DNA from: Allacma fusca | Lineage: Eukaryota > Arthropoda > Collembola > Symphypleona > Sminthuridae | DNA: 64,000 nucleotides | Direction: 5' to 3' | Assembly (NCBI GenBank): GCA_947179485.1 | Contig: OX359250.1 | Location: forward strand, 4,981,661 to 5,045,660 | In this document: positions 4,460-59,526 of the stretch, one piece after another | How the letters are laid out: each line of letters starts with the position of its first letter | Numbering within the stretch: the stretch's first letter is position 1 | Notes under the pieces: model-generated | Database searches by the model: none | The model's input: the letters and a program-made list of their open reading frames with translations, nothing else | Told to the model about the DNA's origin: nothing | Made by a program: the position numbers and the translations under genes

Positions 4460-5487
4460 CAGGGTGGCTTGATTTAAATCACGTTGATTTAAATCTTGAT
4501 TTAAATCAAGATTTAAATCACTTGATTTTTTTAATATAAATCATTGATTTAAATCAAAATAGAATCTTCAACTTTCACGATTAGGCATAATGTAATTTGG
4601 CGTCTCAAAACGTTGTAAAATGGACATTTGTGCATTTTTATGAATTTTGGACATGAGACCAAATTACATTTGGTCATTTTTAGTACAATTTTGGTATGTT
4701 GCTTTTGGATTTTCTGGACCAGCTGTCACGGTGTCATAAAAGTTACATACAAGCGAGTTTTGAAATATTATATATTACTAGAGCCTCTGCCGGGGATGCT
4801 TGTTTTGTTCCACAGAAGATTCTGTCTCGTTCCGAAATCCAGGGACAAATAAATGTATCTCGATCCCGTCCCGAAATATCACATCGACAATACTCATGTC
4901 CCAAAATTATCCCATCCCGAAAATAAACCAGAATCTACAAAAACATCCCAACATCCAATCTTTCTTAATTAGTACCGTTTTGAAAGTGGCACAATTTAAA
5001 TATGAGAATTTTGTGCCGACAGATATCCACATTTGTTTAAACTGAACATTCCCAAATTGCGAATAATTTTTCTGCCCCGACAGTTTCGACCATCCCGTCA
5101 ATATGTATGCCCAAGCAATAAAAATCCAAATGAGACAGCTGGTATTTGTCCTACACAGCGTTTGACTTCAAAGACAAAACTCAAAAAAATACTTTTGATA
5201 TTTGGGGTTGAACTGCAGCCAGCTTTGTATTCATAATAATACTTGGCTTGCTTTTGCAATTTTCTCTCGATATTTGTTATTAATTGTTCAAGTTTCATTG
5301 GTACTAACAGTGTACAATATTATTAAGACAATTAAAATCCAAAAATTTGTACGGTGATTTAATCGTACGATAGAATTCTGAATTAAAATCAGAAAATGTT
5401 GATTTAAATCAAAAAAATCCGATTTAAATCAAATTAATCTGATTTTTTTGATTTTTTACAAAAAAATCAAAAAAATCAGCAACCCTG
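4460..5487. mobile_element. hAT-type non-autonomous element 1, GATTTAAATC-rich, with perfect TSD
   Basis: A 1028-bp element is bounded by an exact 8-bp target duplication TTATTTTT at 4452-4459 and 5488-5495. The ends are imperfect inverted repeats: CAGGGTGGCTTGATTT on the left, and CAGGGTTGCTGATTTT read inward from the right. Eight-bp duplications with CAGGG(T) ends are typical of hAT transposons. The outer 80-100 bases on each side are packed with the palindromic word GATTTAAATC and GATTTTTT runs. No transposase is encoded. The short internal frames look incidental. Confidence 0.88.
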
Positions 5488-5693
5488 TTATTTTTAGATG
5501 AAGGCTGAATTTGCGTTTACGTTTTTTAGAAGTAACGCTGAGGAAAGCCCAAATATTTTAATGCCTAATTATAAAGATATGTTAAAGGATGAAATTTTAC
5601 AATATTTTAGCCTTGGAACTTGGAAAGCTATTTTCATTTGTGAATATCTGTTTCACTATGCATTGCATATAGATCATTTAACATCACACAAAG

Positions 5694-6328
5694 CAGGGTT
5701 GGTTTGGTTTAAACCAAGGTACAAATTACCTGAAATGTTTATATTTCGTCTTGTAAAATACTTGCATTTTGCATTCCACTATGTAAATCATCTCCTTTAT
5801 TACCTTGCTTTTATTTCATCTTTGTCGTAAACTTATTTACTTACAAGTAGCCATGGCCACATTAGAATCTAAAAATTCTGCCGGATTTCTCGCACAAACC
5901 AGGGAGAGATGGCACAAACTTATGTTCTTGCGACATGTTCTTGGGACATTGGGCCACTTACACAAAACTTTATTCGGACCCCGAGTGGGCTTGTGGCGAG
6001 GGTTACTTGTTAGCATATTATTTAATAAACAAAATGTCAGGGTTAAATTTCAGTGAAGTAAATACTAGTAGCTTTTGGTCTTGCACATTTAGAAATTAGG
6101 AATCGTTTGTAGAATAAAAAGCTTAAAAAAGTTGTGTTTATACTGCATAGTTGTCGTCAAAATTATAACGTCGAATATTTCATGGTTTATAACAACTGAG
6201 TTTGGGAAATAAGTACGTTTGTTCAGTTTTCCAATCCTTTTGCTTATTAATGATTGGGTTTTTTTGGGTTGTAAATTTGTTTAACCAAAAAAAACTGGTT
6301 GCTTGGTTTAAAAAAAACACCAACCCTG
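5694..6328. mobile_element. hAT-type non-autonomous element 2, GGTTTAAACC-rich, with perfect TSD
   Basis: A 635-bp element is flanked by the exact 8-bp duplication ACACAAAG at 5686-5693 and 6329-6336. Its inverted ends are CAGGGTTGGTTTGGTTTAAA and, read inward from the right, CAGGGTTGGTGTTTTTTTTA. Just inside the left end is the palindrome GGTTTAAACC, and a decayed version lies at the right. It shares the CAGGGTTG terminus with element 1 but not the subterminal words, so it is a related yet distinct family. It is non-coding; the 110-codon frame at 5498-5830 that crosses its left edge is chance. Confidence 0.88.
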
Positions 6329-6754
6329 ACACAAAGCACATAACTTTGCCTCTTCACGACGATTTATACTGTATACCAGTTAACTTTTAAGTACAAATTG
6401 CAATTGCACTAACAATTATTGTACTTATCGGTGCAATTATATCCAATAGCTTTTGCAATTACTGCAAGTAACTGCAAGTAACTCATGAACTAATTTCAAG
6501 TTCAACTTCGGTTTTTTGTACAATCTAATTTATTGACACATTTTACCAAGTACCAGTTACGGCATTACTGGTACTTGCATTATCAATTGCAATAAAATTA
6601 GTTTCTTTTATTCCCCAATCTTTGCATCGACAGAAACTATAGCATTTTTGGAGTTATGTGTAAAACCCGTTTCGGAATCTCGGCGTCACGATTTGATGGC
6701 TAGCAAGGATTTATGTTATGGGAGTTACGAGAAAACTCCGCCGGGGATTTTTAC

Positions 6755-6835
6755 GCGGAGTTATTTACGCAGAGAAAACTCCGCGGGAGATTATTACGCG
6801 GAGATTCTTACGCGGAGAAAATTCCGCCGGAGATT
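6755..6835. repeat. Short GCGGAG-type degenerate tandem repeat
   Basis: The words ACGCGGAG and GAAAACTCCGC alternate four or five times. The words are partly self-complementary (GCGGAG against CTCCGC), so the stretch could fold. It runs directly into the 34-bp array. Confidence 0.6.
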
Positions 6836-6837
6836 TT

Positions 6838-7143
6838 TGATCTTTTCTTCAGTTAGGATTTTGAAAGTCGTTGACCTTTTCTTCAGTAGGGATTTTGAAA
6901 ATCATTGACCTTCTCTTCAGTACGGATTTTGAAAATCTTTGACCTTCTCTTCAGTACGGATTTTGAAAATCTTTGACCTTTTCTTCAGTACGGATTTTGA
7001 AAATCGTTGACCTTTTCTTCAGTATGGATTTTGAAAATCGTTGACCTTTTCTTCAGTACGGATTTTGAAAATCGTTGAACTTTTCTTCAGTACGGATTTT
7101 GAAAATCGTTGACCTTTTCTTCAGTACGGATTTTGAAAATCGT
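6838..7143. repeat. 34-bp tandem array, nine copies
   Basis: Nine copies of a 34-bp unit containing CTTTTCTTCAGTACGG and ATTTTGAAAATCGTTGAC were counted by the CTTCAGT word, spaced 34 bases apart from about 6846 to 7118. Copies differ by one or two bases, with the first two the most divergent. No coding frame runs through it. The sequence after the array (7146-7200) is homologous, in inverse orientation, to the block beginning near 39330. Confidence 0.9.
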
Positions 7144-7145
7144 AT

Positions 7146-7365
7146 CAGCAGGGAAATTCGAAACTGATCTACCAGGGAGATTTACAAAAATCCTACCACT
7201 GCCTGTGTCCAGTGACTAATATAATAATTAACCCGTACCCACGCGTGCTCGTGAAGCTAAAAAGTTTTAATGACCAGGCCTTGGGCTCCAGCACTACCTC
7301 GCAGTTTGTGAGGACGAGGGTGAGGGATTCCTCAATCCCTTGTGATGTTGCCTATCTATGATGTC
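7146..7365. repeat. Fragments of two dispersed repeats
   Basis: Bases 7146-7200, reverse-complemented, match 39330-39390; the shared words include GACACAGG and GTAAATCTCCCTGG. Bases 7290-7355 match the reverse complement of 48098-48175, the left end of the GAGGG-rich element; the shared words include CCTCGCAGTTTGTGAGG and CTCAATCCCT. Both are old, truncated copies. Confidence 0.55.
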
Positions 7366-8077
7366 ATGGAGCTTAAAAGATGGGATGAACAGTTTTGCGC
7401 CGACATCCGAAACACGCAAGGGCTGCTGGCTCAATTTTTACTGAAACAACATAAAAGTACTTTCCTTCAGGCTGATACACACACGGACGATTTCCTATGC
7501 TTGTGATATTTGAAAACTCTGTAAATACCACTTGATAGAATGAAGCCTTTACACTTGTCTTGTAAGTGATGCTTAGGGGTTATTTGAATTCTCACATAAT
7601 CATTTCTCTTTGGTGCAAACGCAACGCAAACTGTGGAAATGAAAGTTAAGTTGGCACAGGCTGAGAAGAGGCTCCATCATATCCACTCTCGTTTTTTGTT
7701 CATACTCTACATGCTTTTACTTTATCGCTATAGGAATCCCATACTATTCCAGATCCAAGATCCAAGGGTTGGCTTCCATCTTCCATTCTCACTACCCTTT
7801 GCTTACTATCTTTAACGTGTCTGACGAGAGCTGCGAGGGAGCGTCAGTCTCGATCCACATCTCAATCGCCTATACTACATTACTTCTCTCTTGTAGTACT
7901 AACCTCAATATTGAGGCCAACACTACCGAGACTCTGTTTAAACATTCCAATTTCTGTGTTCTCAAATACATTCACTCTTTTTCTTCGTGTCCAGTCATTC
8001 TCAATTCCTCCACAACAGGGTCTATTTAGTTTCCCTTTCCGTTTTCTCAACTTTTAAGCTCAAAATAATTGTCTGAT

Positions 8078-11000
8078 ATGCACACTCCTGTTTTCTACTC
8101 TGCCCTCGTCGCACTTGTCTGCTGCGTCTCCTTTGGTAAGCATTTTAGTTCTCATAGCCTCGACAACAATCATATAATAGCAATGGACAATGTAATTTGT
8201 TTTTGATTATTTATTTACAGTTTTGTTTATTCAATTATCAAATTTCGATAGTAATTCGGCTTCGGCTCTGATAGATACTGTAATATTATAGTTACATCCA
8301 GTGTAAAAATATATTCTATAAATGCAAATTGCAAAGGAACGACAGACAGTTTAATGTTATTGGACTCATTACACTAGTGTCCAATTTTTCAATGTTACTG
8401 GACTAAATTACACTTGTTTCCAATGTTATTACTTCGGCTGTCAAAATTTGCACATGTTGTACTTACACATAAGTAGATAATTATTATATGGGGGCGGGAA
8501 ATGTACGAGAATTTTATTTTAGACTTTTACTCTCAGCAGAACTTGAACGTAGGAAAAGACTGTAGCTAGCTTATGAGAAATTAAGAGGTGAAAACACGTG
8601 GGGGAATAAATTAGGCGTAGACGCGGATATGCGCTAATAATGTTCAATTATGCACAGAGATGTGCGAATACTTTGCATTGTAATAAAAATACTAAATGAA
8701 ATCTAAAATACTCAATACACATACAAAATACCGCAGTACTATTTTGAAACATACTTTACACAAATATTTCGTAACATATACATACATAGATAGTTCTGAT
8801 ACATTAAATATAAAATACTGTATTTACAATACATTATTAATTAGTGATTAGTCAAATACTTCAACCCGAAAAGGTGCATGCTGACTCATTTATTTTGTTC
8901 ATACCCGAAAAATACACATTTTTTAACGATGCATGGGAATGTCTATCCTTGTCAAGATTCAAAATTACACTTAAAAATGATATTTGTGTTTGTGACGTAT
9001 AGCTTTGCGTGTCGTGAAGACTTACAGATGGCATATATTTGTGGAAATTTATGGTAAAGAAATTACTGTATTTTGACCAAAAGACAAGTACTAATTCAAA
9101 TACAGCAAATCTCACTACATGAAGTAATAAATTACAAAATACATAAAAATACGCTTTCTTACATTTTTACATACGAAATATCCTATTTTCCCTCAACAGA
9201 ACCAACCACCAAAATACTTGCAACGACTAAAAACACGTATTTTCAAATAAAGTTTTTATAAATTATCCTCATCTGGGTATACTGGTATACATGCATATCG
9301 TAAATGTAGAAATGTAATATTACAGGTAGAACACTAGTGTTGATAGCTTTAAATAACTTCATTTTGTTCAAGTTTCCAATTAAAGGACATGCTAAAATTT
9401 TAGCCTCAGTCCTATTTGGTTTTCTAAAAACACCTTCAGATATTCAAATACAATCTATCAAAAAACAAGTTAATCTTCCTGTCAAAAATGGTTACACTCT
9501 GGAGCCTAACATAATGCATTTGTATTGCATAAGATTTACTTTGTTAAGTGTTTCATAGATATGCCTTCATGCTTTAACTTTATGCCTTTCATACACACCC
9601 TCGGACAAGACCATTTCCTTGCCTTGATTAGCAGTTGTGTAGACCTCCCGGATTTTCAGAAACTGAAAACAGAGCATTTTAATGGGCCCAAAATCAAGAT
9701 ATTGTTTGGTCAACAATGACGCAGATAATTGCTAGTGAAGTATTTTTAGAATATCTCGTTAAATTTTGAGGTAGAAGTCATCTAACAATAAATGTCAGTA
9801 CCCAAATTGAAATGTCGTCAAAATTTGAAAGTGGCAAAATAAAACGTTTAGATTGAGGTTTTCCAAGGTTGCTTAAAATTTACAGCCCAATTCGACAAAA
9901 CGGCTGCTCAAAAGTTACTGACAGGACAATGTCAATTAATTATATATATTTTTACGAAGTACCAATGCCATGTTGAAAAACAATCAACAATTCCAACTTG
10001 CCCCATGCTCTCACCAAATAACTGGGTTTCCTACTGAGAACATTAAAAACCAAATACCTAAGTAAGTATGTACCTAAGAATGATTGCCCTGGAGGTCAGA
10101 CTATTGGGTTTCCCTCATAAGCTTTATATCTACTCTACATATTAGTTTCATACGTAAGTAAGTCTTAGAATAAGGATATTTGGGTTTCTACACGAACATT
10201 TCCTCACGATAGTTGCAATGAGAACATTATTATATATGTATACTCTCCATTTTGTGTATCTATTTACACGCTTACTTGGGAAAAAGCAAAACGAATAAAT
10301 ACCTGAAGTCCTCACTAAAAGTAAAAACAAGTCGAAGGTCACCTGGCCAAAATTGTCCACATACACATACATTGTTTCCACACCTTGACTTGAAGCATCA
10401 TGTGTCACACATTCACTTAATTCATGCGATCAGTTTTCCTCACTGAGAAAAATTCTTTGTTACAACATTATCTTCACCGTAAACTTCGTCCAATGGTTGA
10501 TATAGCACTCCAGCTCCAGGTACAACTCCGAATAAGCGCTTACAAATTATAGCCCTCTTTAATTCGAAGAATCCTTATCGTGTCTATGATATACATACAT
10601 ATAGACATGCACATATAAATTCGGAACATATTATTCAAGACGGTACAAAAATGAGCTTAAACAAGTACGTTGTATTAAAACCAACTGAATTGGAAATGCG
10701 ATACACGCTTTATTAAAAGCAGTTATAGGCAAATATTTACGATTAGCATTCCAATGCGATAGGAGCCGTTGTGATGCACCTTTGATGTACTCAAGAATTT
10801 TAATCCAGCTTAAAGATTTCATGTAATTATTGTAGGAAATTTTGTATAGCAGTACTAAGAATTGAAAATCGCCATGCTACATGTCAGTACATGTGCACTA
10901 GATATTCAAGTTTGTACTCGATTTTTGAGTGCCTACAAAATTTGTGACCAATTTGGAGATTGAAGTTTGTTAGTTTGTTACCGTTGGAATTCAAATCATA

Positions 11001-12531
11001 ATTCCTGCTCAAGGTTAATGTTTGCATTTCATTCCAAAACTTGAGTGTCTAATCAAACTTGAAAATTAATCGCTCCTTCTCGCGAAGTCTGGATTACTGT
11101 TCGACTTACAGGATTTTTACTCCCGACATACAGACCAACCTTTCAAGTGCTTAGTGTTGTTTTTCTTCCTTGGCAGTAAATACTTGGATGATTATTTTTT
11201 CGAACAAAGTGATGTTCCCGTAATGCATGGAAAAGTTGAATGCCGCTGTTAGTAATGATGAAATGCGGAATTGAAATATGGCTCGAAATAAAAAAGCCAG
11301 AAATTTTTATAGGAAATAACATCCGACGTATCCCCTCCCCTTTGTGCAACTTTCAGGACGCAAATATTTGCACGCGCTGTAGCGCAGCTCTAACCAAAAG
11401 GTGAAGCAACAGAATGTGAAGTGAACTACCTGTACTTAGGTGTATCTCCGAGACATTTGCGGAAAATTCCTTGTCAATCTGGACAATTTCTGTTGAGCCC
11501 ATATTTGTCCCATTCCCAGCCCATATCCCATGATTTCGAAGTCCCGTCCCAAGAGACTCAGTCCCGTTTCCCCAATTAAGAATGATTTTGGTTGTTATAG
11601 TAATTACACTAGCAAAAATTATTTAAGGTGAAAGGCACACGTCCCGATTAGCTGTATTTCAGGAAAAAATATACAACAAAGGATTCAGCATTCATCATGA
11701 GTAAAATCTGGAATCTTATCCGTCAAAGATGATGGGAACTAATACAATAGCAGGGTCAAAAATAAGTTCATTTAGAATTGACTTCGTTTCTCCTATTATG
11801 CAATTTCCAAAATGGACTTGTACTGTTTCACATCTTTAGCGCTCTCATATATGCACACAAGGGGATTCTGGTCTCCTATTGTTTTGAGATATACGAATAA
11901 TAAGAGTCCTGATTTTGTGTTTGTTCTGCAGCAACATCTCTGGAGTGCTATGTGTGCAGCAGTGCCGAAGCATCAAAGGAATCCAAGAAATGTGGATCCG
12001 GCAAGGACGTAGATGATCAATACAAAATTGATTGTTCCAAAGCGGATGCAAAGTATGGCGGCGATAAGACCGTTGGAAACTGGACCGTGTGCCGGAAAAT
12101 CATCACTTGGGTTGACTACAACTTAAATGAAAACGACAGTGAGTTCATCAATTACCTACAAATTCTTCCTCTCTTCACATTTTCTTAGCTAAAATACTTG
12201 AATAACTTGATAACATTTTTTAACCTCGTGGAGTTTAAAATGTTCCATCAGTCAGTACTACTGTATGTCGTATAAAGTAAAACTTGTGAGATTTAATTTG
12301 ACCCAACTATATTTCACAGCCGCTGGTTCCGATGAGCGGATTCTCCGAAAATGTGGTTACAACGAGGAAAAGCACGCGGATGGCTGCTTCTATCGAGGTG
12401 GTCTTGGTGGACGTCAGCGTGTTTGTAGTTGCAAGACAGACAATTGCAACAGCGCACCGAAAACTTCAATGACCATTGTCACCTTGTTGGGTGCTTTTAT
12501 TCCCGTGTTCATCGTTACCTTGTTCAAATAG
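8078..12531 (+). CDS. Ly6/uPAR-domain GPI-anchored protein (three exons)
   Basis: Coding exons are 8078-8135, 11932-12138 and 12320-12531; phases join cleanly to give 158 residues. Residues 1-19 are a hydrophobic signal peptide (MHTPVFYSALVALVCCVSF) encoded alone in exon 1. The mature part begins LECYVCSS, the standard three-finger start L-x-C-Y-x-C. Further cysteines follow, and the domain closes with CSCKTDNCN, the CxxxxCN signature of Ly6 proteins. A hydrophobic tail (TIVTLLGAFIPVFIVTLFK) after a small-residue stretch indicates a GPI-anchor signal. Relatives in insects (quiver/sleepless, boudin, crooked, bero) act on the extracellular face in septate junctions or as channel modulators; which of these it matches is not clear. 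Intron 1 is 3.8 kb. An AATAAA follows 30 bases after the stop. Confidence 0.93.
8136..11931 (+). other. Intron 1 of the Ly6 gene
   Basis: No further exon was recognised. From about 8655 to 9255 the sequence is unusually rich in AAATACT/AGTATTT words and starts CAGAGATGTGCG, which resembles a hAT end, but no matching right end or target duplication was found. Around 11510-11580 are GTCCCGTCCC/GGGAC words also seen near 4840 and 61730-61810. The rest is AT-rich with no visible structure. Confidence 0.5.
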
Positions 12532-12560
12532 CTGTGCTGTAAATTGTAGGTGCTGTCGGC

Positions 12561-12566
12561 AATAAA
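12561..12566 (+). terminator. Polyadenylation signal of the Ly6 gene
   Basis: A canonical AATAAA lies 30 bases after the stop codon of the Ly6 protein, in the sequence GGCAATAAAAATGC. Confidence 0.6.
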
Positions 12567-13073
12567 AATGCTAAAACTACGAAAAACATGTTTTCAGTCA
12601 TGGGAAATACAAATATACGAGAATTTCTATATGGACATGCATTAGTAATAAATAATGTGTTGTAACCACCGATTTCCGTAGCATTCCTGGCTTTCAAATC
12701 ATTTTTAATAACTTCACTATCAAGGTTTTGATAGCTATGAGTTGCTGGACGTTATGCAGAGAAGTAAATGCACACCTCACATGATCACATCATATTTTTC
12801 CGAATGCTGCAACAAATGATTGGGTTGTTTCATGTTAGAATTAAGTACTTACTGATATAATTTCTACCTTGTTCATTCATCCGATTTTTATGTTAATGTA
12901 ACCAGGGATTATACAACGTTTAATTTTTTGCAACGTGGGGGGGGGGCAAAGGTCCAAATATGATGTACATATATGTACTATATACATAGATATAGTACAT
13001 ATGTATATGCCTGCAGTACCCCATAATTTTTATAATAATTAATATTATTTTATTCCAGCGGCGTAGTTACGGG

Positions 13074-15373
13074 TAGTGCTGTAATTTGTCCTTTTAGTAT
13101 TGTATTGTACTTTGGCGAAAAGTACAAAAGTAGTACAACTAAGATATTGTTTTGTACTCCGAGTTTTGTTTTTGTTTTGTACTTCTATCAGATTGTTTTT
13201 GTTTTTGTACAATCTGTATTGTATTGTTCTAAGGTTCTAGAAGACGCTAGAAATTTGCTAAAGTGATAGTTGTATCTGAGTTCAAGAGCACGTAGGAATT
13301 GATTTGTGCAATTTAGTTGTTTAAAAATTACGTAAAAGATCAAAAAACCAGTCATTGACGAATCTCCCATATAAAATGCATTGAATCTGTTGACGGTCGA
13401 ATTTTGAAGGGTGCAATTCTGTGGCACCAACCTATTTGTGAATAATCCCTGTAATAACCACATTGTAATTTCCAGAAGAACATAATTTCATAAACAATAT
13501 TCACTACCATTGCTTAAAATTAGAATGGATAGAGTAGACGCGTGGGCTCTGATATCTATATTTTCAATTGGCTCAGCCGTTGGCTTTTACCACCTATTTC
13601 ATCGATGTAGAAATGTCCCCTATGCGTGGACTACATTTACAAATCGCATAGTTCGTTTGTTAGACTAGGTCTTTTGTCTTTGTTAGACACAGACTAGATT
13701 TATCCAGGTCAACATTTAAACCATACGGTTAGCCAATTTTATTGATCAGTACCGATTCATTGGTATCATATCTGATGCCATTGAATTGTCATTAATTGAT
13801 TTAATTCATGACCTTTTTCATGACATCTTACTAATCCACATTAAATGTAACCTACAACTAGTACATCTTATCGGTGGCGTCTAATAATCAATATAATAAT
13901 AATAATAATAGGGTTTTATTGGTTGATATAGTGGCCTCAGCCGTTACAACCTTTAATAATCAATATGGTAACAGTCAAAGTCATGCAACTATTAGTGACA
14001 CAGTAAGGTCAATCTGAGGTCATGTGACTATTAGTGACACAGTAAGGTCAATCTGAGGTCATGTGACTATTAGTGACACAGTAAGGTCAATCTGAGGTCA
14101 TGTGACTATTAGTGACACAGTAAGGTCAATCTGAGGTCATGTGACTACTAGTGACACAGTAAGGTCAATCTGAGGTCATGTGACTATTAGTGACACAGTA
14201 AGGTCAATCTGAGGTCATGTGACTACTAGTGACACAGTAAGGTCAATCTGAGGTCATGTGACTACTAGTGACACAGTAAGGTCAATCTGAGGTCATGTGA
14301 CTACTAGTGACACAGTAAGGTCAATCTGAGGTCATGTGACTACTAGTGACACAGTAAGGTCAATCTGAGGTCATGTGACTACTAGTGACACAGTAAGGTC
14401 AATCTGAGGTCATGTGACTATTAGTGACACAGTAAGGTCAATCTGAGGTCATGTGACTACTAGTGACACAGTAAGGTCAATCTGAGGTCATGTGACTATT
14501 AGTGACACAGTAAGGTCAATCTGAGGTCATGTGACTACTAGTGACACAGTAAGGTCAATCTGAGGTCATGTGACTACTAGTGACACAGTAAGGTCAATCT
14601 GAGGTCATGTGACTACTAGTGACACAGTAAGGTCAATCTGAGGTCATGTGACTACTAGTGACACAGTAAGGTCAATCTGAGGTCATGTGACTACTAGTGA
14701 CACAGTAAGGTCAATCTGAGGTCATGTGACTACTAGTGACACAGTAAGGTCAATCTGAGGTCATGTGACTACTAGTGACACAGTAAGGTCAATCTGAGGT
14801 CATGTGACTACTAGTGACACAGTAAGGTCAATCTGAGGTCATGTGACTACTAGTGACACAGTAAGGTCATGTGACCTCAAATTGACCTTATTGGGTCACC
14901 AATAGGGTCATGACAGATTACGGTTTTAAGGGGCGCATGACCTATAATGAAACTTGGTGAGTAACTAGTAGTAAATCACCTATGATTGACTTTATTGGCG
15001 CATTAATGGTCACATGACACTAGAATGACATACTCAATGTAAGTGTATATTTTATATGGGCGATAGTAGGCGAATCTACCAATAATTAGTCAATGCCCAG
15101 TTTTTGTGCTTTGACGTGTTTTTTCACGATTCCAATTACACAAATCAATTCCTATGTGCTCTAGAAATCTATTACAACAATCACTTTAGTAAATTTCTAG
15201 CGTCTCTAGAACCTTGAAACAATACAATTTGGATTGTATTGTTTTTTTCAATTCCTGTTTTGTTTTTGTTTTAGTTTTGTATCTCGAAAATGGATATTGT
15301 TTGTTTAGTTTTGTACCAAAGACAAAAACAATACAAAAGTACAAAACTAAACGAGTACAATATTACAGCACTA
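13074..15373. mobile_element. Long-inverted-repeat element 3 carrying a satellite, perfect TSD
   Basis: This 2300-bp element is flanked by the exact octamer GTTACGGG (13066-13073 and 15374-15381), which is single-copy target sequence of the older element around it. The ends are TAGTGCTGTAATTTGT and, read inward from the right, TAGTGCTGTAATATTG. The inverted repeats continue with gaps for about 300 bases: both arms hold a TTTTGTAC/GTACAAAA-rich zone, then a conserved part with GACGCTAGAAATTT, AAGTGAT and AGGAATTGATTTGTG. Between the arms is the 39-bp satellite. There is no coding capacity. A second member starts at 62859. Confidence 0.88.
13986..14868. repeat. 39-bp satellite, about 22 copies, inside element 3
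   Basis: Near-identical head-to-tail units of 39 bp read TGACTACTAGTGACACAGTA followed by AGGTCAATCTGAGGTCATG. The main variant is CTATTAG against CTACTAG, mixed among the first 14 copies and fixed afterwards, a sign of recent homogenisation. Each unit contains two AGGTCA hexamers in direct orientation five bases apart. The last copy breaks into GGTCATGTGACCTCAAATTGACC, which reverses the motif. There are no spacers and no open frame. Confidence 0.95.
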
Positions 15374-17051
15374 GTTACGGGTAGGCCGTCCTGGCCCGGG
15401 CCAGGGTAAACAAATTAAGGGTCGGGGTAAAACATTTCAACATAGGCCCTCCTAAAGTATTAAAATTTGAACTACGCTTTAATTATGCTGTCCTAGACAA
15501 CAATTACTTTGGCCAACATTAAAAATTGTTCGTCTTGGATCAACTGGAATTTCAAGAGCAGTTGGCGGTTTGTTGGAATGCTGGGGCAACGTTGGCAATC
15601 CCGGCCGAATGTTAGACCAATGTTTCCCAATTTCCAATAATTAGTGTTGACTGGAGTTATAAGCAAATCACAGGGATTACTTATTTTGCCCTAAAACGTG
15701 CTTTAAATTTAAATATCGAAATACTTGAAATAAGATGGTTTGATTATGTTTGGTTGTTGGACCTGTGAGGCGGGTTGTTTTGATGCACATGTCTATATAT
15801 CTGGTACAATTACACCAGGTAAAGATATACGAAGGGTTCACTTAATAACACTTAAGGCACCATGGAGTTGTCTCACTGACAGCAAAATACAGTTATGCAA
15901 GGGGACTGTCAATCCGACACGGATAACTAGTTTAATGAGAATTATGTAACACTTTGCCAAATTTAATGAAAAAAAACTTTTGGTGTAGTTGGGTAATTAT
16001 ATTTTCCAATGTACTTACGTTGAACTTGCACTTTTATTCTGACTCTGACTTGTTCTCCCTTCAAATTCCCAACCTCGACTCCCGAGTTCTGGAGTTTCTT
16101 TCTATCTTCTCCCATGCCCTTTATACATACACTTCCTTGGCATCTAGTACTATCTTTAGGTAAATTATAATCATGAGACGTTCACATGAGTTTTACATTG
16201 TGACACGCTATAACCTCCCCCGATAAAGAAAGCAATGTGACAAAACTGCTTTGCAATCTGTAATAAGTGTTTTTCGGGCTCCACTGAAGACAACGCCAGA
16301 TTCGAGATATTAAAACAATTATACCGGACTACTGCTTCAATGCAACCTTAACCTTCAAAATGACAAGAGTTCTATAAAGATCTATAAAATATTAAAAGGT
16401 AAAAACCTAATTCTCAGAATTGGGGATGAGGCTACACTTACGGTAACCATTTTTACAATGTGATTATATATATATATATCAGTAATATATTATTCAATTT
16501 GGCGTACGGAGAGAATAAAAAGGTTCAACTGTACCCAAAAGCAAGCCAGGAAATAATCTATGAAGTCAACAGTTTTGTAAAAAATTTGCAGAAAGACAAA
16601 ATGTCCCTCAAAATTTGGTGAAATTAAATATCTCGTATTTGCACTATCCTTTGGTATTGTGTACATTGTGCCTGAGACAGATTAGACAGGCCGTCATCTG
16701 CAAATATGCACATATGTATTCATTCCGTTACAGTAAATAGCAGTAAATATTTAAATAATATGCAGATATACAATGTATCAGTACACGCAATGTACATGGC
16801 TACATGGAGGAACTATACTGCAAGTTGCAGTCTGCAAGACAAGGAAAAGGAAGGTCTTATTATGCGACACAAATCATGTCCACCTAAAAAGCTTTATCCG
16901 GAAATCAAACGTTTTTGGAGTCTCTTTTGTTAGTAAGTATTAGAATAATGGTACCAATAAAAATTCGTAAAAAAAGACACACTGGAGGCCCACCCCATGA
17001 TTTACCCTGGCTGAGGGCCAGGGTTAAAAAATTTTTATGACTGCACCACTG

Positions 17052-23955
<6,904 letters not shown>

Positions 23956-24000
23956 GATTGTGTACAGATTGTGGTGACGAAGGTAAATTATTGGCTTAAA

Positions 24001-31503: not shown

Positions 31504-31547
<44 letters not shown>

Positions 31548-37314: not shown

Positions 37315-37337
37315 AATCACACTCATTTCGTTTATAT

Positions 37338-40300: not shown

Positions 40301-41080
40301 TTGATGGAAAACTGTCTAAGTCCATTTTATAAAAATCATGAACTATTTGTGGACGAATTATTTAACCGATAAATTTAGTAGTTATTGTGTGACAATACTG
40401 CATGTCATTTCCAGGGATGGAAAATGTTGCTGAAAAATGTTGTAAAAGGGAAAAAATGAGCGGGTGGGTTTAATAACGTCAAGGAAACCGTGAAGTAGTA
40501 ATTTGGTTAATTAAAATCAAATAATTTACACGAAAACGTAAACAAAACCCGACAGGTTACGTCAGTGTTCGTTTTTGACTATACCTTGCCCGTTAAACCA
40601 ATTTTGCCCTCTAGTTACTCGACACTTACTGGACTTAGGAAGCAGCAAGAAAGTAGGGAGACTAATTTTTCACGAACATACTCACACTGCCAGTAAATAA
40701 GAGCATACGAACAACATTCCAACATTTCATCCGTCCCTTTAAGTTATTCCAGGATTGTTTACTGTAAACAATTCAGAACAGAATGAAATATAACAAGAGA
40801 TTTTGATTTTGTGATCACAAATATTCAAAATGAGCCGGGAAATGTGAGCTGGAAGGACCATAGTCATGTCAATGACAATAAAAGTAATATTTTAAATCCT
40901 ATAATTACTAGAAGAGGTTCCTATTTGTACGAATTTGTCCGTCTTATTTCATTTTTAACATCGTAGGGGAAATGGTTGAAGAACACTATGCAACAAATTC
41001 TTCGACCAAGCGTAAAATTGCTAATCAATTTCAAGAAACAGGAGCTACCGAAAGGTGGACGTAAAGACCCGCAGCGGTTC
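37338..41080. repeat. Duplicated segment B, copy 2, with two insertions
   Basis: Segment B resumes after an insert at 37360-39721 and is interrupted again at about 40490-41020. Both inserts are absent from copy 1. Outside them the two copies align with small differences and the same order. Confidence 0.8.
37360..39721. mobile_element. Insertion of about 2.4 kb in segment B copy 2
   Basis: Comparison with copy 1 shows the inserted DNA directly. Near its left edge is GGGGCAAAATAACGTCCGCC (from 37377); read inward from its right edge is GGGCAAAACAATAGGCC, so short inverted ends are likely. The right third (39330-39700) is a degenerate array of AAATCCCTG(T/C) words, homologous to 7146-7200. No transposase frame or clear target duplication was found; it may be composite. 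Confidence 0.55.
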
Positions 41081-41440
41081 CATCCCCTTTTGGGGATGTT
41101 TCCCTAATAATACCCCTGTCCCTGACGCGTATATAAAGTCTCCCTTTACCTAATGCAAAGTTTACCCTATCCCCTACAGTATAAATTATCCCGATTCCTA
41201 ACGCATAATTTTTCCGTACCCCTAAACACTAAAGCAAAGTTTTCGCCGTACATATCCCTAAAACAAAGTTATTCTAAACCTAACGGATACAGCGCCCCCT
41301 ATCACATAAATTAACCCTTATCTCTAACACATAAATTCGCCAGTATACTTGACGGACATATAAAGTTTCCCTTATATATCTAACGTATAAAGTTTCCCTG
41401 TCCCGAAGGGATTGGGACACAAAAACACGCACGTACTCAC
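41081..41440. repeat. Degenerate CCTAACGCATAAAGTTTCCC-type repeat
   Basis: The words CCCTAT, CCTAACG and ATAAAGTTTCCC recur irregularly at about 35-50 base spacing from 41100 to 41400. It looks like a decayed tandem or subterminal array with no coding content. Confidence 0.5.
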
Positions 41441-41999
41441 ATTTTATAATAGTAAAGAAAGGAAAGATACATGTTACTTGAAAATTAAAGCAAATATTAA
41501 GAATTTCATGTGAAGCTATTATAATGCTACAATAATAATTTATTATTGACTACAAGTATAGGCCTAATAATTTTGGAACAAGTCCTTACCAAATCTTGTT
41601 GTAATTTAATAAAAACTGATGGAAAGAGTAGATTCCTTTCATAGATTACGATTCTGAAATAATTTAGTCGGGGTATCATAGTTTGAAATACACGAGAGGT
41701 CAAAGGTCACCTGTGTAATTCATTGCAGTGCTCGGGTACGCTGACGGAGCACAAATGTATGTACCTATTATACACCGCAAATTGTTCCTACTCCGCCTTG
41801 GATTTGGAAAACTCGTTATGGAGGATATGATGATGGGGTGCATAGCCAACAAGAAGAGACGGCCATGAAGGTATTAGTAATGACGCCGACGAGCCAGTCC
41901 TTAGGTGGTTACTCCAAGGAGAACCAGAAAAAGGGAGAGATGTGAAGCTGTTAGGTCTAGAAACGAGGTAATGATACAACGATACAAGTGACATAAACG

Positions 42000-43345
42000 A
42001 ACTCAAGTTTCTCCACCAATACCAATACCGACAAACTACGGAAATGTGTGATCACTCTTAGGACGAAAACATTACCCGGTTAGAAAAATGTCTCAAGGGA
42101 AAAGCAAGAGCAGCTGTCCTTCCTATCCTTAGATTGGCGCAAAATGTAGACCACGTGATGCAGACACTGGAGAATGTTTTTGGTAGATGAGACCAAATCA
42201 TCAAGTCAATGATTTCGAAATTCAAAATTTGTGTCTCACCAACTGCAAAGAAACCCGATTCTTTGATCCAATTCTGGAACCTCGTCTCAAACCTTGCAGA
42301 AATAATAAACAGCTGAAGCTGTCTGAAAAAGTCGTTGGAAGACTGTTAAGGGAACAGCCACAAATGTCAACATCACAAAATGCCCAGTTTACAGACCCAT
42401 GGACCCCACTGACATTAATGCGACATATTCACAAGACTTGACTGACCCACCACTAGTGATTGCAACATCCACCAGGGCTTAACTTACAGGAACTAAATTA
42501 TGCCATTATCGGAGCTTGATTCTAATTCTAAATGAGTCAGATTCATATTCAATGTGCAATGTGTTATGGCACCAGTGAACGAAATATTAAAAAATTCATT
42601 GCTTTTTTAATATGCGCGTCTAAAAGGAATCCTGGTTATGTCTTGAAAACTGCTCGCGAAATTATTGCGACATCAAACAGGATAAAGACCCATTGACTAA
42701 GACACTCGAAGCAATCAAATAGCGCAGGGACCCACTGACTATTTTGATGTTGACATTTGTGGCCTTTCCCTAAGACAGATTAAAATCTATGCTACTTTTA
42801 CTTATTCCGGACATGGTCAGTAGACGGCGCTAGCGCGGAGACTACCATGACAAATGGAGATAATAAAAACCAATTGGCCTTATCTGAATGACATTCCGTT
42901 CTCTTCTACGTTCAACGCTAACTAAGGCGATTTTAATTGGCTCGGACAACATTTTACTGTCCACTCTTCGAAAACTGCCCCAGGGACACTGGAAAGATCC
43001 GGACATGGCAACTTTCCAATTTCAAATAGAGTGGACAGTGTGGACACCAAATTCGTATTCATCTTCAGCTGAGTCTGAATTGATGAAGATCATCAAGGAA
43101 TCTTCCTCTACGGAAAATTTTGGCGTGCGAAAAAGAAGAAAATTCGCAGTTTTTGACGCGGCTTGCAAGTCATTTGGAGTTAGTCTAAACGACTGTCTCT
43201 TAAAGGGCCCAGATCTTTTAAATTCATTTCCTGCAGTATTGTGGAGATTTAGAAGACATGATGAGTTTACCATGCAAGTCGTAATTTTCGCAGAATGTTC
43301 TCCAGCATCCACTTTATTCTACAAATGTGACGCAGAAGAATGATG
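42000..43345 (+). mobile_element. BEL/Pao retrotransposon fossil (gag and pol pieces)
   Basis: Two pieces are recognisable. At 42050-42300 a gag-like stretch with RLEKCLKGKARAAV, resembling the DUF1759 region of BEL/Pao elements. At 42888-43343 a protease/RT-border piece with ILIGSDN, EWTVWTPN and FGVSLNDCLLKGPDLLNSFP, typical of BEL/Pao reverse transcriptases. The element is truncated and broken in several places. No LTRs were identified. It is a fossil of moderate to high age. Confidence 0.7.
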
Positions 43346-44151
43346 AGGAACTTTTGAAATTACACGATCGAAAGTCATGGAGAGTTTTAGGACCCACAAA
43401 TTTTCATAGGAAAACCTTGAATTAATAAAGAATTCGTCAACTTATTTTTGTGAACATTGAACAAAGCACAGGTTCCTTTCCCAAGTTGAAAATTGGTTAC
43501 AGGTCTTAAGGTTAACATCTACTGTGAGCAATTATTGATAAATTATGCTTATTTGCGTTAGTGGTGGATATAATATGCTATTACTTAAAACCCTTACAGA
43601 ATCTACTTGTAAAAATATGACCTGAAACAAATACCAGTGCATCGGGCTTCAGAGGATATGTAGCTCTTTACTAGGATAAGTATAGGATTCAAAGTTTTAA
43701 TAAAATCGTAAGGAATGCCTCATCGTTCTAAATACGCGTGCATTGGGGTGTTGTTATAGGAAGAATCGACTGTCTTATCACCGTCATAGTGTAAATTTAA
43801 GGAAAAAACTTAGTCACAACGTACAAGCGTTGTCGTTAATGAACTAATGTCCATATGGAATTTGTTACAAAAAAGCTGAAAATTTTATTGTTATTAGGTT
43901 TATATCCCTGACATAAGTGTCAGAAACTTAGATGGTTGGAGGATTAATGGAGTGGCCGAAAGAATATGACTCTGAAGACGACTGTTATTGTCAATATAGT
44001 AACTGTGTTTCAAAAACAGCAAGAAAATAAATACGCTTGCCAGGGATTTGCCCACTTTTATTTTACAATGGCATATACTCATTACAATAAAGTTTTCAGG
44101 TCTTAATATCATTCCAAAAAAATATCTTATTGTTTTTGCGGCATCCACGTA

Positions 44152-44326
44152 CAGGAAAAACTCGATATAACGGATGGCTCTACAACGGAAATTTAGTTAC
44201 ACCGGACAGATTTGTTTGTCCGGCTCCCATATAACCAATGCTAAAATTATTGCATACAACGGACATTTTTTATAGCGGACAAATTTTACTGGTCCCCTGG
44301 AAATCCGTTATATCGAGTTTTTCCTG
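44152..44326. mobile_element. pogo/Tigger-type MITE
   Basis: A 175-bp element has inverted ends CAGGAAAAACTCGATATAAC on both sides, perfect over at least 20 bases, and flanking TA dinucleotides (44150-44151 and 44327-44328). The CTCGATATAACGGA end is characteristic of pogo/Tigger-like elements. It is non-coding. Confidence 0.85.
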
Positions 44327-44429
44327 TAATTGTTCTATTGGTAAGTTTTGATACCTGACATAACATATTTGACTGTACCGAATCTCTGGACAGAACTCAT
44401 GACACCACACTTCTCCCTTAACTTTGATT

Positions 44430-45392
44430 CAGGGACGGGATATCGGAAAAATACGGATTTAAATTCGGATTCGAATACTTTCTAGTTTCGATTTCAATTT
44501 TAATTATTTTTAATAATACTTAAAAATTTGAATTCCGATACGGATTCCAATATATTTGAATACTTGCTGAATTTGAATTCCGATTCAAATACTTTTCGGA
44601 TATTCGTACAATTTACGGGAATTTATTTAAAAGAACAATTTAATCGCAAAAAAATAAGCAATACATAACACATTAAGCGTTTTTGCATCTATACATTACC
44701 ACGTAATCATTTAATATAAATTTAAGCGCAGAAAACACACGCTCAACTGAAATTTCAGTAACTAGAAAAGCAAGGATTGATCCAATAACAGTTTTTAAAA
44801 ATTCGGAGTAATCTGTTAAGCTGTCTAACTACTTTTCCGGTTAGTTTTTTCTGACAGTATATATTTGCAAATCGATTTGTTTGATAACACATGGTAACTA
44901 AAATGCACTTCAACGGAATTAGTTTTACGCATCCCATGATGAGAACAAGATTTAAGAAAGAAGAAACTTGATTCACTTGATCGTCCTGTAAGACCTGCAC
45001 CATGCGGCTATCTCATCCTATTGTAGGAATTTTTACTAAAAGGGCTTTAATTCTTTGCCCATTACCAACCATACACTTTTCGTTTACCAAACGTTCGTTA
45101 TTTGCCCTTTGGGTTTTATAATTGCATGTGCGGCTTTCAAAAAATGCTACCTATGAACATTTTCTCGCACGTGACAGTATAAAACCCAATGAAATCGATA
45201 CTTTATTGGAATCGGAATTCGTTAAAAAACATTCGAATACCGATTCGAATACCCTTGTTTTTATTCTAATCCAATTTCGGATACAAATACGGTGGTGACT
45301 TGTTTTCCGATTCTAATATCGATTCGGATACCCGAATTTTTTGAATATAATTCCGATTCTAATTCCGATTCGAATTCGAATTCCCGTCCTTG
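44430..45392. mobile_element. hAT-type non-autonomous element 4, ATTCGAATTC-rich, with perfect TSD
   Basis: A 963-bp element is flanked by the exact octamer CTTTGATT (44422-44429 and 45393-45400). Its ends are CAGGGACGGGATATCGG and, read inward from the right, CAAGGACGGGAATTCGAATT. Both outer 150 bases are dominated by the words ATTCGGATTC, GATTCGAATA and TCCGATTC, which are mutually complementary. The centre shows no transposase. A related left end occurs at 58357. Confidence 0.87.
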
Positions 45393-46349
45393 CTTTGATT
45401 ATATCTATAGCTGACCCATTAGTCCAAAAATTATCAAAACAACATTTAAAATTCTTTTGAGGAATTTTAGAACGTGCCGTACGGATGATTCACGTACATT
45501 TTTACTTATGAAAGAAATTATACCGACAAATTATTTTATTTCATTCCTTCTTATCTGAGTAATTAATGCTGACCTGATTGATTTTTTCTAATTCAGCATT
45601 AACAGCAGTATGGAAATTAACAACTGGCCCTATAGTGCCACTCTTGATACACAATACTTTGCAACTCTAAAAGTGTGCGAATTAATTACAAGAACAAATG
45701 GCAGTACAAGAGTAAACATTGAAATCTAACCAATAACATGTAATTCAAACTCGGGATGATCATTCCACTGACGCAAAAGTTACAAATAATACAACATGAT
45801 ACTGATATTATGTAACTTCAATGCTTTTCTGATATACTTTTTGCCAATGTGCATTGATTTCATTATTGGTCTCTTCCAAAAATTTTATTACCGTCAATAT
45901 GTTTGAATTTTCCCAAGAATTGCGGTTAACAAATTCAAAACAAAATGCAGAACGGTTAGGAAATTTCAACAATTATTTATTTAGGTTAGCCCGCTATTTG
46001 CAAGAGTACAACAAATTGTTTCATAGATGTACCATGAAATCCCTAAACTATTACAGTTAACTAAAAGATTTTGTAAAAAAGCTGTGAAATTGCATGTACA
46101 CACAGAAATCCCGATTCGGTTTAGTTAATTTTTCAGGGGTCCACTTTTTAACCATGGCCCATACGTTATGTAAAGCAAAAGCAACTCAAACATTTTGGCT
46201 AGACAACGGAATTGACTTTTGGGAAAATTGTGAATGGGGATTGAAAATGGCCTGGAAGCTCGCCTGACTTCATTCCGTCTTAGTTTTTAGGAGCCAGCTT
46301 AAAAAGCAATGTTGAGGATCTTGTGATTCAGAGATTTCCCAGTCCCAAC
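45393..46349. other. Spacer between two elements
   Basis: AT-rich and without a supported frame. The 68-codon frame at 45854-46060 has no family features. Confidence 0.5.
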
Positions 46350-47580
46350 CAGAGCTGCGCTCAAGTCAAGTAAATCCCAAACTTGACCCTGAACTTGACT
46401 TGACCCTGACAGTCAAGTAGGTTTTTCAGACGGTCTTGAACTTGACGGTTCATGGTCAGACAATTACTTGAAAATTCAGGGTCAAGTATTCAAGTACTTT
46501 CCGCGTAACTTGAACCTGGTCAAGTATAGCAGGGACAACTCTTGACTTGACCATGACTTGACCATGACCCGAACTTGAACTTGACTTGAACTGTCAAGTT
46601 TTTAAAAAAATAGAAATAGAAAAATAGTATTCACACTTAAAATACACCAAGTACACCATTTATGGTTAAAACTTAGCAAATAACAATATTATTCACAATT
46701 GTCAAGCTTCTCCAAGTAAATTTTGAGTTGCTGCTTCAGTTGGATATTTTAATGTCTTGTGTTTTAGTTTTAGCCAACCTTCAATCACGAGAAACTACGA
46801 ATAGTCTCTGCTAATTGTAAGGTAAACAGTCTTTTAGAAGTAAGTAAATCATTTCCCATTGAATTTTCCTGTTAATAATAATTACTGACGCTAACATTCA
46901 AGTTTGGGTTGTGCTTCACTGAAAATATCTACAGTTCAGCGTCCACCCTGTTAATGAAACAAACTGGCTTATGTGGTAGTGTTTAACGTTTTACAGATGT
47001 TAAATTGTTTAGAATGAAAAGAGTACTTGGATTTAAGTAACTTGATTGATTAATAACGCGTTTATTTTATACAACAATCGAACATTGAACACTGTTGCTT
47101 TCATAGGTGCTGCTCCAAAGTTTTTATATTCGTTTTCTTTCGTTCACTATTACAGCTGTGGCTTTCCAATATCTAGAGATATTGAATCGTAACCCAAAAA
47201 TATGTAGTTTAGAAGAGCATGTATGGATACGGAGTCTCGGAGTAACGATAACATTATGAAAGAAAACCTATTGAAATATATAGTGCCACAACTTCGATAT
47301 GCGTAACGTTTCGTTACTTGAATAAGTACTTGAAATACTCATGGTTCATGGTCAAGGATTTATACATTTTTACTTGACCATGAACATGACTTGACTCTCA
47401 AGTAGAATTTTTTGTCTTGACCATGATAACTACTTGATTTCAAATCTCAGGGTCAAGTAGAATAAATAACTTGACCATGCCTTGAATGTTCAAGTATCCA
47501 TTATATTTTACTTGACCATGACCCGAACTTGACCATGACTTGAAATACTCATGGTCTACTTGAACTTGAGCGCAGCTCTG
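46350..47580. mobile_element. hAT-type non-autonomous element 5, CTTGACCATGA-rich, with perfect TSD
   Basis: A 1231-bp element is flanked by the exact octamer GTCCCAAC (46342-46349 and 47581-47588). Its inverted ends are CAGAGCTGCGCTCAAGT and, read inward from the right, CAGAGCTGCGCTCAAGTT. The outer 250 bases on each side consist almost wholly of CTTGA, TCAAG, CATGGTCAAG and ACCATGACTTGA words. The centre is ordinary AT-rich DNA without a transposase. A partial copy ends at 60309. Confidence 0.9.
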
Positions 47581-48090
47581 GTCCCAACAACGACACCAGT
47601 GACTTCCATGAAGCGATAATCCATATTCGAAGGAAGACATAAAAATGACATGAATGGTTTGGAGAAGCTCCTCTGGTCCTATCCTCAAAGACTGGACGAG
47701 GTGAGGAATGCTGAAGGAGATCGAATATTTTATACCGAATCGATTTTTTACTTTTTAGTTTCCTGACCGTAACTCCTGTAATTTTTGACTGATTGTTTTA
47801 AAGTATCATTTCCTATCCCGAATACAGTTCGCTACTAAAGCATATACCGTCTGTTATTTAATTATTATTGTGCAGCATGATTCGAACTTAAAAACCAAAA
47901 GTGGCAAAGGCTATTGACTACCCTGTGTATGTACTTAGTTGCAATTGGTTTCTGATTTCAGGAATTGTGGTTTTGGATAAAGCACAACTATTACATAACT
48001 ACCATACGCCATAATTGTAGCGACAAAATGAATGCACAGTCACAAACCAATCTCCTTTCCTCATTTTTCAATTGAACGAGTGGGACCTGT

Positions 48091-49369
48091 CATACATGGG
48101 CACCCTCACGAGGGATTGAGGGTTGCCTCGCCCTCTCCCTCGTCCTCGCCCTCACAAACTGCGAGGGTGATGGCGAGTACACGTTGATTTTAGGTGCCCT
48201 CATGAACATGAGGGAGAGGACCTATGAATAGGATGTGAACGAAAGAGGGGGAGGCAGAGTGCACATGTAAGCCCTCATGACCTTCTCTTACCTTAATCGT
48301 TATGCGAAAATCATACATATATTGTTCTGTAGCAAGACCAACTACATAACGTCTTAGGTACATGGTTTATGGCCCTGCGCAAAAATCCCAGTTTTAATTT
48401 TTAAAAGTAAAAGGCCCTCTTGTTTAGGTGAAAATTTCTCATATTAAACTCCAGAAAAAAATTTCATTTTAGGATGTCGGGGAGACATTGTCATTTGTAA
48501 ACAAGGGCACCTGGGCTTTATATTTGATTAATGCAGTTTTCAGACCCTACTATTGAATATTACTGGTCTGAGGTTGTGGAACATATTTGTGACTAATCTT
48601 TATTAACCGGAGACGTAGAAAACAGCTTTGATCAATAATAGTCATTTTCTGAGCTACTGAATCGATTATAATGACGAATTATTGTCAAAGACCAACAAAA
48701 ATGTCTTTTATAACAAAATATTGTAGTTTGACTACTGAATGTTTTTCATTTTGCCGACAATTAAAATATAAGGATGATAGGCACTTTTTACCGATGAATT
48801 AGAATTTTAAACTTGTTTTTTACGTTATGTTGAGGACAAAACATTGTAAATTTTTCAAGTTTTTTATACTTTTTACAATTATGTCAACCACGAAACCTAA
48901 TATGTACCTGTACCCAAATACCTGTGTAAAACCTGCACCAATAAAGGGCACTATTTTGAACACAGTAGTTTATTTCAACAACAAGTTTTTTAAAATTTCT
49001 TTTGAACGCTAGGTTGTAGGAAGTTTTATAAACTTTATAAGCTAACCAAAAGTTCCGTACGTTCAGAACTGGGGGGAATGTTGATACTTATTGAAGTTGT
49101 CATAGTTTAACCAAGTGTCTGCGAAAAAGTTATTTGAAGGCACAGGTATTGTAGGAAATTGTAGGGGGGTTATTTACGCGTAATATAAAATAACGAGGGC
49201 CCTCATGAGTGCGAGGGAGAGGGGTGTATTTTAAAAGTAGCCCCTCACGAGGGCGAGGACGAGGACAACCCGTAACGTGTTGCTCGATTGATGACGAGGG
49301 AGAGTGCGAGCAGGCTATATTCCATCCCTCGCACAAAGAGGCAGAGGGGGAGAAAAACGCCCATCTATG
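48091..49369. mobile_element. Non-autonomous element 6, CGAGGG-rich, with perfect TSD
   Basis: A 1279-bp element is flanked by the exact octamer GGACCTGT (48083-48090 and 49370-49377). Its ends are CATACATGGGC and, read inward from the right, CATAGATGGGC. Both outer 150 bases are GAGGG/CCCTC-rich on an otherwise AT-rich background: GCGAGGGTGA and CCTCGCCCTC on the left, GAGGGCGAGGACGAGG on the right. The octamer duplication suggests hAT, though the end differs from the CAGGG type. No coding frame is supported. A truncated copy lies at about 7290-7355. Confidence 0.85.
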
Positions 49370-52194: not shown

Positions 52195-55069
<2,875 letters not shown>

Positions 55070-59520: not shown

Positions 59521-59526
59521 CGTCAT

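Follow-up and report, generated by a model that had tools for sequence, protein, structure and literature searches.

In two sets of related hAT transposon families in the genome of the springtail Allacma fusca, the short sites repeated in the subterminal regions have kept their positions while their letters have changed in concert. One of these sets includes E1 and relatives of E2, two of the six non-autonomous hAT-type elements (E1–E6) of the 64,000-nucleotide stretch analyzed here (the window), which is part of the 392.7-Mb genome assembly and lies on a 48.06-Mb chromosome given as X2 in Table 2 of PMC10427803. Judging from the sequences compared, such a change of a word in place would probably mean that the enzyme reading it has changed what is read. 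The arrays bear on the question of how specificity can shift jointly in a transposase and in a dozen scattered sites with mobility being kept, a question that applies likewise to any regulator with many sites.

TAAG families with common positions and different letters

The first set comprises elements that start with TAAG (L080, L083, L082, L088, and L107) and to all of which one array is common. L080 is 3319 bp in length, has the duplication ATTTGGAT on both sides and possesses BED and hAT dimer domains, both scoring over the Pfam cut-off. L107 (1.84 kb, with the target site duplication (TSD) CCAGGATC on both sides) is apparently a deletion derivative, and the core of L092 is 96.3% identical to it. 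Counted from the tip, the units of the array (half-sites) are found at 13, 18, 32, 37, 43, 48, 53, 65/66, 84, 89, 94, and 106, with most families missing some of them. The position and strand of the half-sites were compared between four subfamilies over the first 110 bp, using circularly shifted arrays as the null expectation. The numbers of coinciding half-sites were as follows:

L080 and L107: 10 (of 11 and 12)
L082 and L107: 10 (of 10 and 12)
L080 and L082: 9 (of 11 and 10)
L088 and L107: 8 (of 8 and 12)
L080 and L088: 7 (of 11 and 8)
L082 and L088: 7 (of 10 and 8)

Circular shifting gave means of 0.4–0.5 coinciding half-sites, and for each of the six pairs none of 2000 shifts equalled or exceeded the observed number. 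Identity of the spacers ranged from 13/38 (L082–L107) to 25/42, i.e., 34–60%. L080, L083, and L082 have the ten letters CGGATAGGAT at sites 13 and 32, whereas L088 has CGGATCGGAT and L107 has CGGTTCGGAT there; letters at sites 43, 48, and 84 are less regular. The arrays are also mixed. Those at the 3-prime end contain 17 CGGAT and 7 AGGAT in L080, 16 CGGAT and 4 CGGTT in L088, and 7 CGGAT and 15 CGGTT in L107, and those at the 5-prime end contain 17 CGGTT and 9 CGGAT in L107 and 21 CGGAT and 3 AGGAT in L080.

Core identity, determined over 444–460 columns, was 61.0% for L080–L082, 54.6% for L080–L092, 48.7% for L080–L088, 53.2% for L082–L092, 50.7% for L082–L088, and 55.6% for L088–L092. An earlier reading of the window (the sequence-only reading) had supposed that the words expand and turn over rapidly, a picture into which four subfamilies with cores 49–61% identical, positions largely kept and letters changing, do not fit.

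E1 and the relatives of E2

The second set was found on comparison of E1 with L051, a relative of E2. The interiors of these two are unrelated and their ends can be aligned, being 77% alike, but E2 itself does not align with the ends of E1. Half-sites of E1 and L051 occur at 12/13, 17/18, 27, 32, 39, 44, 51, 56, 65, 79, 87, and 92. They read GATTT in E1; in L051 they read GGTTT, apart from the one at 27, which has kept GATTT. Between 23 and 97, nine of 10 half-sites have changed at pentamer position 2 and 0/40 of the other half-site letters have changed (Fisher's test, 4e-9), with 10/25 changes among the spacer letters. The words of E1 and E2, previously read as different, belong in E1 and the E2 relatives to one array, as GATTT and GGTTT, respectively. 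Many copies of the word are present in the genomic relatives of E2 (e.g., L051), not in E2, and L053 possesses the ladder of E1 and L051, displaced by one base beginning at 78.

Places in the genome with two GATTT/GGTTT words numbered 412, with 0 for the reversed pattern. In most of the approximately 100 two-word places listed, the second site still reads GATTT. This would fit GATTT having turned into GGTTT with a single site not following; the change may also have run in the opposite order.

BED fingers and words

BED fingers encoded as two exons were identified in L080, L083, L032, L082, L088, and L092. With the two exon halves joined, those of L080, L082, L088, and L092 score over the Pfam cut-off for PF02892. 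The hAT dimer domain (PF05699) is over its cut-off in L080 and L101, and in the profile search of the genome it was over the cut-off at the L080, L082, L088, L092, and L101 loci alike. In the first half of the finger, L080 agrees with L082, L088, and L092 at 16/27 positions each. In the second half, L080 and L082, which have their word in common, agree at 22/25 and L032 and L082 at 21/25, with pairs lacking a common word ranging from 12/25 to 17/25 (L080–L088 14/25, L080–L092 16/25).

In the structure of the Hermes BED domain with DNA, the base contacts fall in this second half of the finger, ahead of the zinc ligand H71 (PMC10368747). R63 and T65 contribute their main chain and Q64, S66, N67, and R70 their side chains. 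Equivalents of Hermes positions 66, 69, and 70, as counted back from the third zinc ligand without superposition, are G-G-Y in L080, S-G-Y in L082, T-R-N in L088, and A-K-N in L092. A recognition code may tentatively be proposed at these three positions, by which G/S-G-Y would go with CGGATAGGAT, T-R-N with CGGATCGGAT, and A-K-N with CGGTTCGGAT.

The six elements and their genomic copies

The six elements of the window are listed below with their terminal inverted repeats (TIRs); no strand is assigned to them.

E1, 4460..5487: non-autonomous hAT-type element, TIR CAGGGTGGC/CAGGGTTGC, TSD TTATTTTT, inverted half-sites GATTT (GATTTAAATC)
E2, 5694..6328: TIR CAGGGTTGG, TSD ACACAAAG, a single exact GGTTTAAACC
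E3, 13074..15373: TIR TAGTGCTGTAAT, TSD GTTACGGG, ends rich in GTACAA/ACAATA
E4, 44430..45392: TIR CAGGGACGG/CAAGGACGG, TSD CTTTGATT, words of the ATTCGAA/GAATCGG type
E5, 46350..47580: TIR CAGAGCTGCGCTCAAGT at both ends, TSD GTCCCAAC, word ACTTGA(CC)
E6, 48091..49369: TIR CATACATGGGC/CATAGATGGGC, TSD GGACCTGT, word CCCTC(G/A)

The sequence-only reading had described six complete elements with exact octamer duplications and had supposed hAT-type transposition. All six start and end pairs and flanking octamers proved exact in the window, and the 8-bp duplications and TIRs support the hAT-type assignment. The first eight terminal bases are alike at seven or eight of 8 positions in all six elements. 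The window was scanned for pairs of 8-bp direct repeats that enclose 150–4500 bp with alike inverted tips, the tip letters and thresholds having been chosen after the six elements were known. This returned E1–E6 and one AT-rich pair (13040–13901); no pairs were returned from any of three shuffled windows.

That reading had also described ends built of many copies of a word. Each end was shuffled 200 times, and the commonest 6-mer in its outer 220 bp was scored against these shuffles. For E1, E5, and E6, 0/200 shuffles reached the score at either end; for E3 the counts were 0/200 (left) and 3/200 (right), and for E4 19/200 (left) and 0/200 (right). The description does not hold for E2, with its one GGTTTAAACC, where shuffles reached the score in 200/200 (left) and 125/200 (right) cases. 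Nor are the words as first given the repeat unit, exact copies being few (three, overlapping, in E4 and three in E6) and the real unit shorter and degenerate.

Copies with common boundaries were found elsewhere in the genome, as had been predicted. Counted as lower bounds that include the element's own copy, full-length copies were present in at least 18 of the 116 genome pieces listed for E1 (1–1028), nine of 162 for E3, 33 of 43 for E4 (1–963), 30 of 48 for E5 (1–1231), and 36 of 44 for E6 (1–1279). The copies of E5 probably represent a recent burst, since they are 97–100% alike. Among the genome matches listed for E2 there was no full-length twin; its longest relatives are 71–79% alike, and shorter pieces up to 94%.

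The octamers were likewise found duplicated at other insertions. Five further copies each of E3, E4, E5, and E6, spread along the ranking, all had an exact 8-bp duplication (20/20), as had six of the seven further E1 loci L002–L008, the seventh (L007) differing at 2/8 letters. At 13 of the 29 E2-relative loci (L040–L068), a CAGGG-type pair with an exact duplication was among the best two pairs listed, and many of the remaining loci are only partial matches.

E3 contains an internal array (13980–14869) of approximately 23 repeats of a 39-bp unit that are 98% alike. The number of units seems to vary among copies, as partial genome matches of E3 end at steps of approximately 39 bp. Copies of E3 also occur in head-to-tail order, separated by exactly 8 bp (C12:4973818–4977947, C10:61647584–61650580), as if one had inserted at the other's duplication or the unit had been amplified. 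Copies of E4 and E5 lie within 1–5 kb of each other at three places (44430–47580 in the window, C10:57064344–57068481, and C1:8785204–8792002).

Candidate hAT-encoding partners of the elements

Autonomous hAT elements with matching subterminal words had been anticipated for these families, and hAT-encoding relatives with similar ends were found for E4 and, less strongly, for E6. L101 spans 3083 bp between exact AAATTAAC duplications and its ends resemble both ends of E4, with tips CAGGGATGAAAATTCGAATCGG and CAGGGATGCAATATCGGAAAAAT compared to CAAGGACGGGAATTCGAATTCGAATCGG and CAGGGACGGGATATCGGAAAAAT of E4. Its hAT dimer domain is over the Pfam cut-off, its BED-like finger is below (17.1 vs. 20.6), and its coding part is split over several open pieces. 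L022 and L038 end in CATAGATGCACATTTT with CCCTC words, compared to CATAGATGGGCGTTTT of E6; 30 bp are common at 90%, and the tip of E6, CAT, is the same in both. They may be regarded as hAT-encoding relatives of E6, less strongly than L101 for E4.

Neighboring insertions are common in this genome and can mimic partner ends, as happened for E5. L091 seemed to be a hAT locus ending in E5-like words and TIR. It was rejected as the partner because its copies L078 and L086 stop matching approximately 250–270 bp past the domain, at the word ATTTCGC; the E5-like end near L091 is that of a neighboring element. L018 was rejected also, the E5-like tip there pointing the opposite way.

Words in the ends of hAT loci

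A profile search of the genome with PF05699 gave 150 scored matches of 860 candidates, all of them over the cut-off. The sample consisted of 70 loci, picked by score and not randomly: 30 loci and 40 further ones taken by rank, mostly one per equal score with a few skipped. For the 40 further loci, 1 kb downstream of the domain was taken, and most loci of the sample were viewed at the 3-prime end. At 80% identity the 70 loci form 45 clusters. An array was scored where one 7-mer occurred at least five times within 220 bp. Arrays were found downstream of the hAT domain at 39/70 loci (and in the best member of 29/45 clusters), in 1/30 upstream stretches, in 11/100 overlapping one-kb pieces of the window outside E1–E6 (at 6.5–9, 39, 49.5–50, and 60–62.5 kb), and in 0/350 shuffles; these counts are rough, as some arrays belong to neighbors and some own arrays lie farther out.

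For eleven hAT families, the element's own 3-prime end could be fixed to within a few bases by copy boundaries or by the duplication, and this end carries the word:

L011 group: CTATTCTA
L017/L018: CCTTG
L022/L038: CCCTC
L024 group: CTCGAACTC
L034 group: TTCAGTTCAATTCA
L073/L076: TACTTACTC
L087/L106: CAGTCC
L078/L086/L091: ATTTCGC
L080 group, L092/L107, and L101: the family word of each

The ends belonging to hAT transposase loci thus contain words specific to the family, and these words differ between related families, in agreement with the sequence-only reading. L090 and L099 have 665 bp in common with no clear word. In L033, L016, and L015, a single word, CCTTC, is kept at similar positions, often within one base.

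Half-sites 16, 21, 26, 45, and 63 coincide between L098 and L105, of nine in each, a comparison that lacks a same-word control and was not relied on. The candidate BED halves seen in both loci are weak matches identified by eye. L023 had been grouped with these two by its TAGTAGTC array, but its coding part goes with L017/L018 and the array may be that of a neighbor; no candidate BED half was seen in L023. Between L094 and L108, 15/15 half-sites are at equal positions, which was not relied on either. Only 227 bp at the ends of their downstream stretches align (89% alike) and the stretch from domain to end does not, so that shared ends produced by end exchange between elements, or neighboring copies, come into question. 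Three hAT domains of equal score lie exactly 9813 bp apart (C8:28181777, 28191590, and 28201403), as if by tandem duplication.

Proposed mechanism and alternative explanations

We consider it likely that E1–E6 are moved in trans by hAT transposases and that their ends consist of half-sites read by the BED finger at fixed places, the letters of which drift with the recognition helix. In this mechanism, hAT transposases would mobilize the non-autonomous elements in trans, the BED zinc finger binding a half-site of approximately 5 bp that occurs as a direct or inverted pair and is repeated in the outer 100–250 bp of each end. The array would be occupied by several transposase subunits, which would keep the end in place to be cleaved. 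The half-sites are proposed to lie at constant distances from the tip because the geometry of the protein–DNA complex fixes the docking positions. When the BED recognition helix changes, sites would take on the new letters one at a time without moving, and non-autonomous elements bearing these letters would be amplified. We infer that the words are bound by the BED finger, that their spacing is under selection and that the change proceeded site by site.

A wider proposal can be put forward only tentatively, and we are somewhat more inclined to doubt than to accept it. According to this, the docking ladder is fixed and the word is replaced in place along with the BED helix, a genome rich in families could serve as a natural record of the BED recognition code, and word switching would free sibling families from each other's transposase. 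Several stages of a change in specificity seem to be represented within this one genome, with the positions as an internal control. Such material may provide a direct route to the BED-finger code and to the prediction of which transposase moves which non-autonomous family.

A number of observations weigh against these proposals. The half-site letters were defined per family once the arrays had been seen, and common ancestry alone preserves positions to some degree. The array of L092 is without one block and its inner sites are shifted. Among E2 and seven relatives, the whole left ladder is present only in L051 and L053, with blocks missing and inner sites shifted in E2, L040, L042, L043, L052, and L056. 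The right ends of E1 and L053 correspond at their first three half-sites (11, 20, and 34), beyond which most sites are displaced by one base and single sites differ. The covariation of BED finger and word is a correlation over four lineages, two of them sisters, and the word-sharing pair L080/L082 is also the closest in the core (61% vs. 49–56%). The 70 hAT loci yielded no hAT-encoding element whose ends match those of E1, E2, E3, or E5, and the high array scores of L091, L018, L024, and L077 belong or may belong to neighbors. Finally, a half-turn spacing of the half-sites is suggestive only. At 5.2 bp over 17 ends, 0/300 letter shuffles reached the signal (18 periods tried); when the lags of each end were shifted together, 19/1000 reached it at 5.2 and 6/1000 at 5.15 (eight periods), and there was no signal at 5.0 or 10.5.

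The concerted change could instead be due to recombination among the repeats of an array, by gene conversion or by template switching in gap repair, and not to selection on binding. Gap repair with template switching occurs in cut-and-paste elements, and the presence of one change common to many sites speaks for it. As the arrays of L107 and L088 are mixed, L051 has GATTT at 27, and differences among the spacers that separate switched sites argue against long converted tracts, we regard this explanation as unlikely, although short-tract conversion could still contribute.

Less probable again is that the arrays are by-products of slippage or microsatellites in fast-evolving ends, without a binding role, their equal positions reflecting ancestry. 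Certain ends are plainly tandem (L015, L085, and L100), and the similarity still remaining between the ends of E1 and L051 would agree with such an origin. However, the sites are found in both orientations, apart from each other and at equal positions in L082 and L107, whose spacers are so little alike, and a single letter is altered in many sites. Arrays are also commoner downstream of hAT domains than upstream of them or in the window. The least credible alternative, to which we give very little weight, is that the six are unrelated kinds of element making 8-bp duplications, some of them not hAT (E3 and E5, without partner): such duplications are found also in other superfamilies, e.g., P elements, and four elements lack a partner in a survey that covered hAT loci only, but CAG/TAG tips with 8-bp duplications are hAT-like, and arrays of the same kind occur in the hAT-encoding relatives of E4 and E6.

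Comparison with known hAT systems

Hermes of Musca domestica makes 8-bp duplications, as do the elements described here. Ac/Ds, Tol2, and Tag1 have subterminal repeats that are bound by the transposase, with family-specific letters and with words unlike those of A. fusca, and we know of no array in register across families for any of the three. Their subterminal repeats are named in PMC3143072 and PMC10368747. Family-specific subterminal words are as such already known, since binding regions differ between hAT elements (PMC3143072) and hAT-derived domains have diverse motifs matching subterminal regions (PMC8097297).

In Hermes, the BED finger binds short repeats of the outer ends by means of the helix that precedes its third zinc ligand, and the arrangement of these repeats differs between the two ends, which is similar to the arrays of A. 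fusca (PMC10368747). Hermes is, however, one family with one short motif (AAGT/AAGC; PMC10368747), in contrast to at least 11 families with their own word in A. fusca, where related families have positions in common and not letters. Herves of Anopheles gambiae is comparable in having a repeated subterminal motif, CG/AATTCAT, that is sufficient for transposase binding, but no close relatives with motifs switched at fixed places were found in the accessible parts of PMC3143072. The CGG-binding proteins have hAT-derived BED/Hermes domains with diverse motifs, often CGG, and the motifs of four hAT proteins match the subterminal regions of their own elements (PMC8097297). That work is a survey of the protein side, in the accessible parts of which no array positions or in-place replacement were found. 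No report of related hAT families with words changed in place was found in the literature searched, which covers subscription journals thinly, so that this is weak evidence of novelty, and no title on springtail hAT elements was found in the literature on A. fusca and springtails.

Other features of the window

The arrays at 59–62 kb, which the sequence-only reading had suggested as further families, do exist, but the element scan found no end pair with a duplication there and one of them is a partial copy of a known family:

59532..60309, no strand assigned: partial copy of the E5 family, containing E5 words and terminating at 60309 in a right tip, with no left tip found

Within 59061–60240, a run of N of 200 bases (59061–59260) is followed by CCCGTTCCCGAA-like words and then by E5 words. 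An E3-like tip, TAGTGCTGCAATAATG, without a partner end is located at 62859, and the arrays near it consist of ATGTCGG (~62080–62660) and GGTACGGGTAC-like words (~61570–61710). Approximately 300 bp past E6 there is an 18-bp tandem repeat (49674–50164) of 27 copies that are 98% alike. By eye only, the open frames at 22818–23171 and 53510–55069 resemble a JNK-type kinase exon and a PTEN-like phosphatase, respectively, and three open frames on the minus strand (268–2260) seemingly belong to one repeat-encoded protein.

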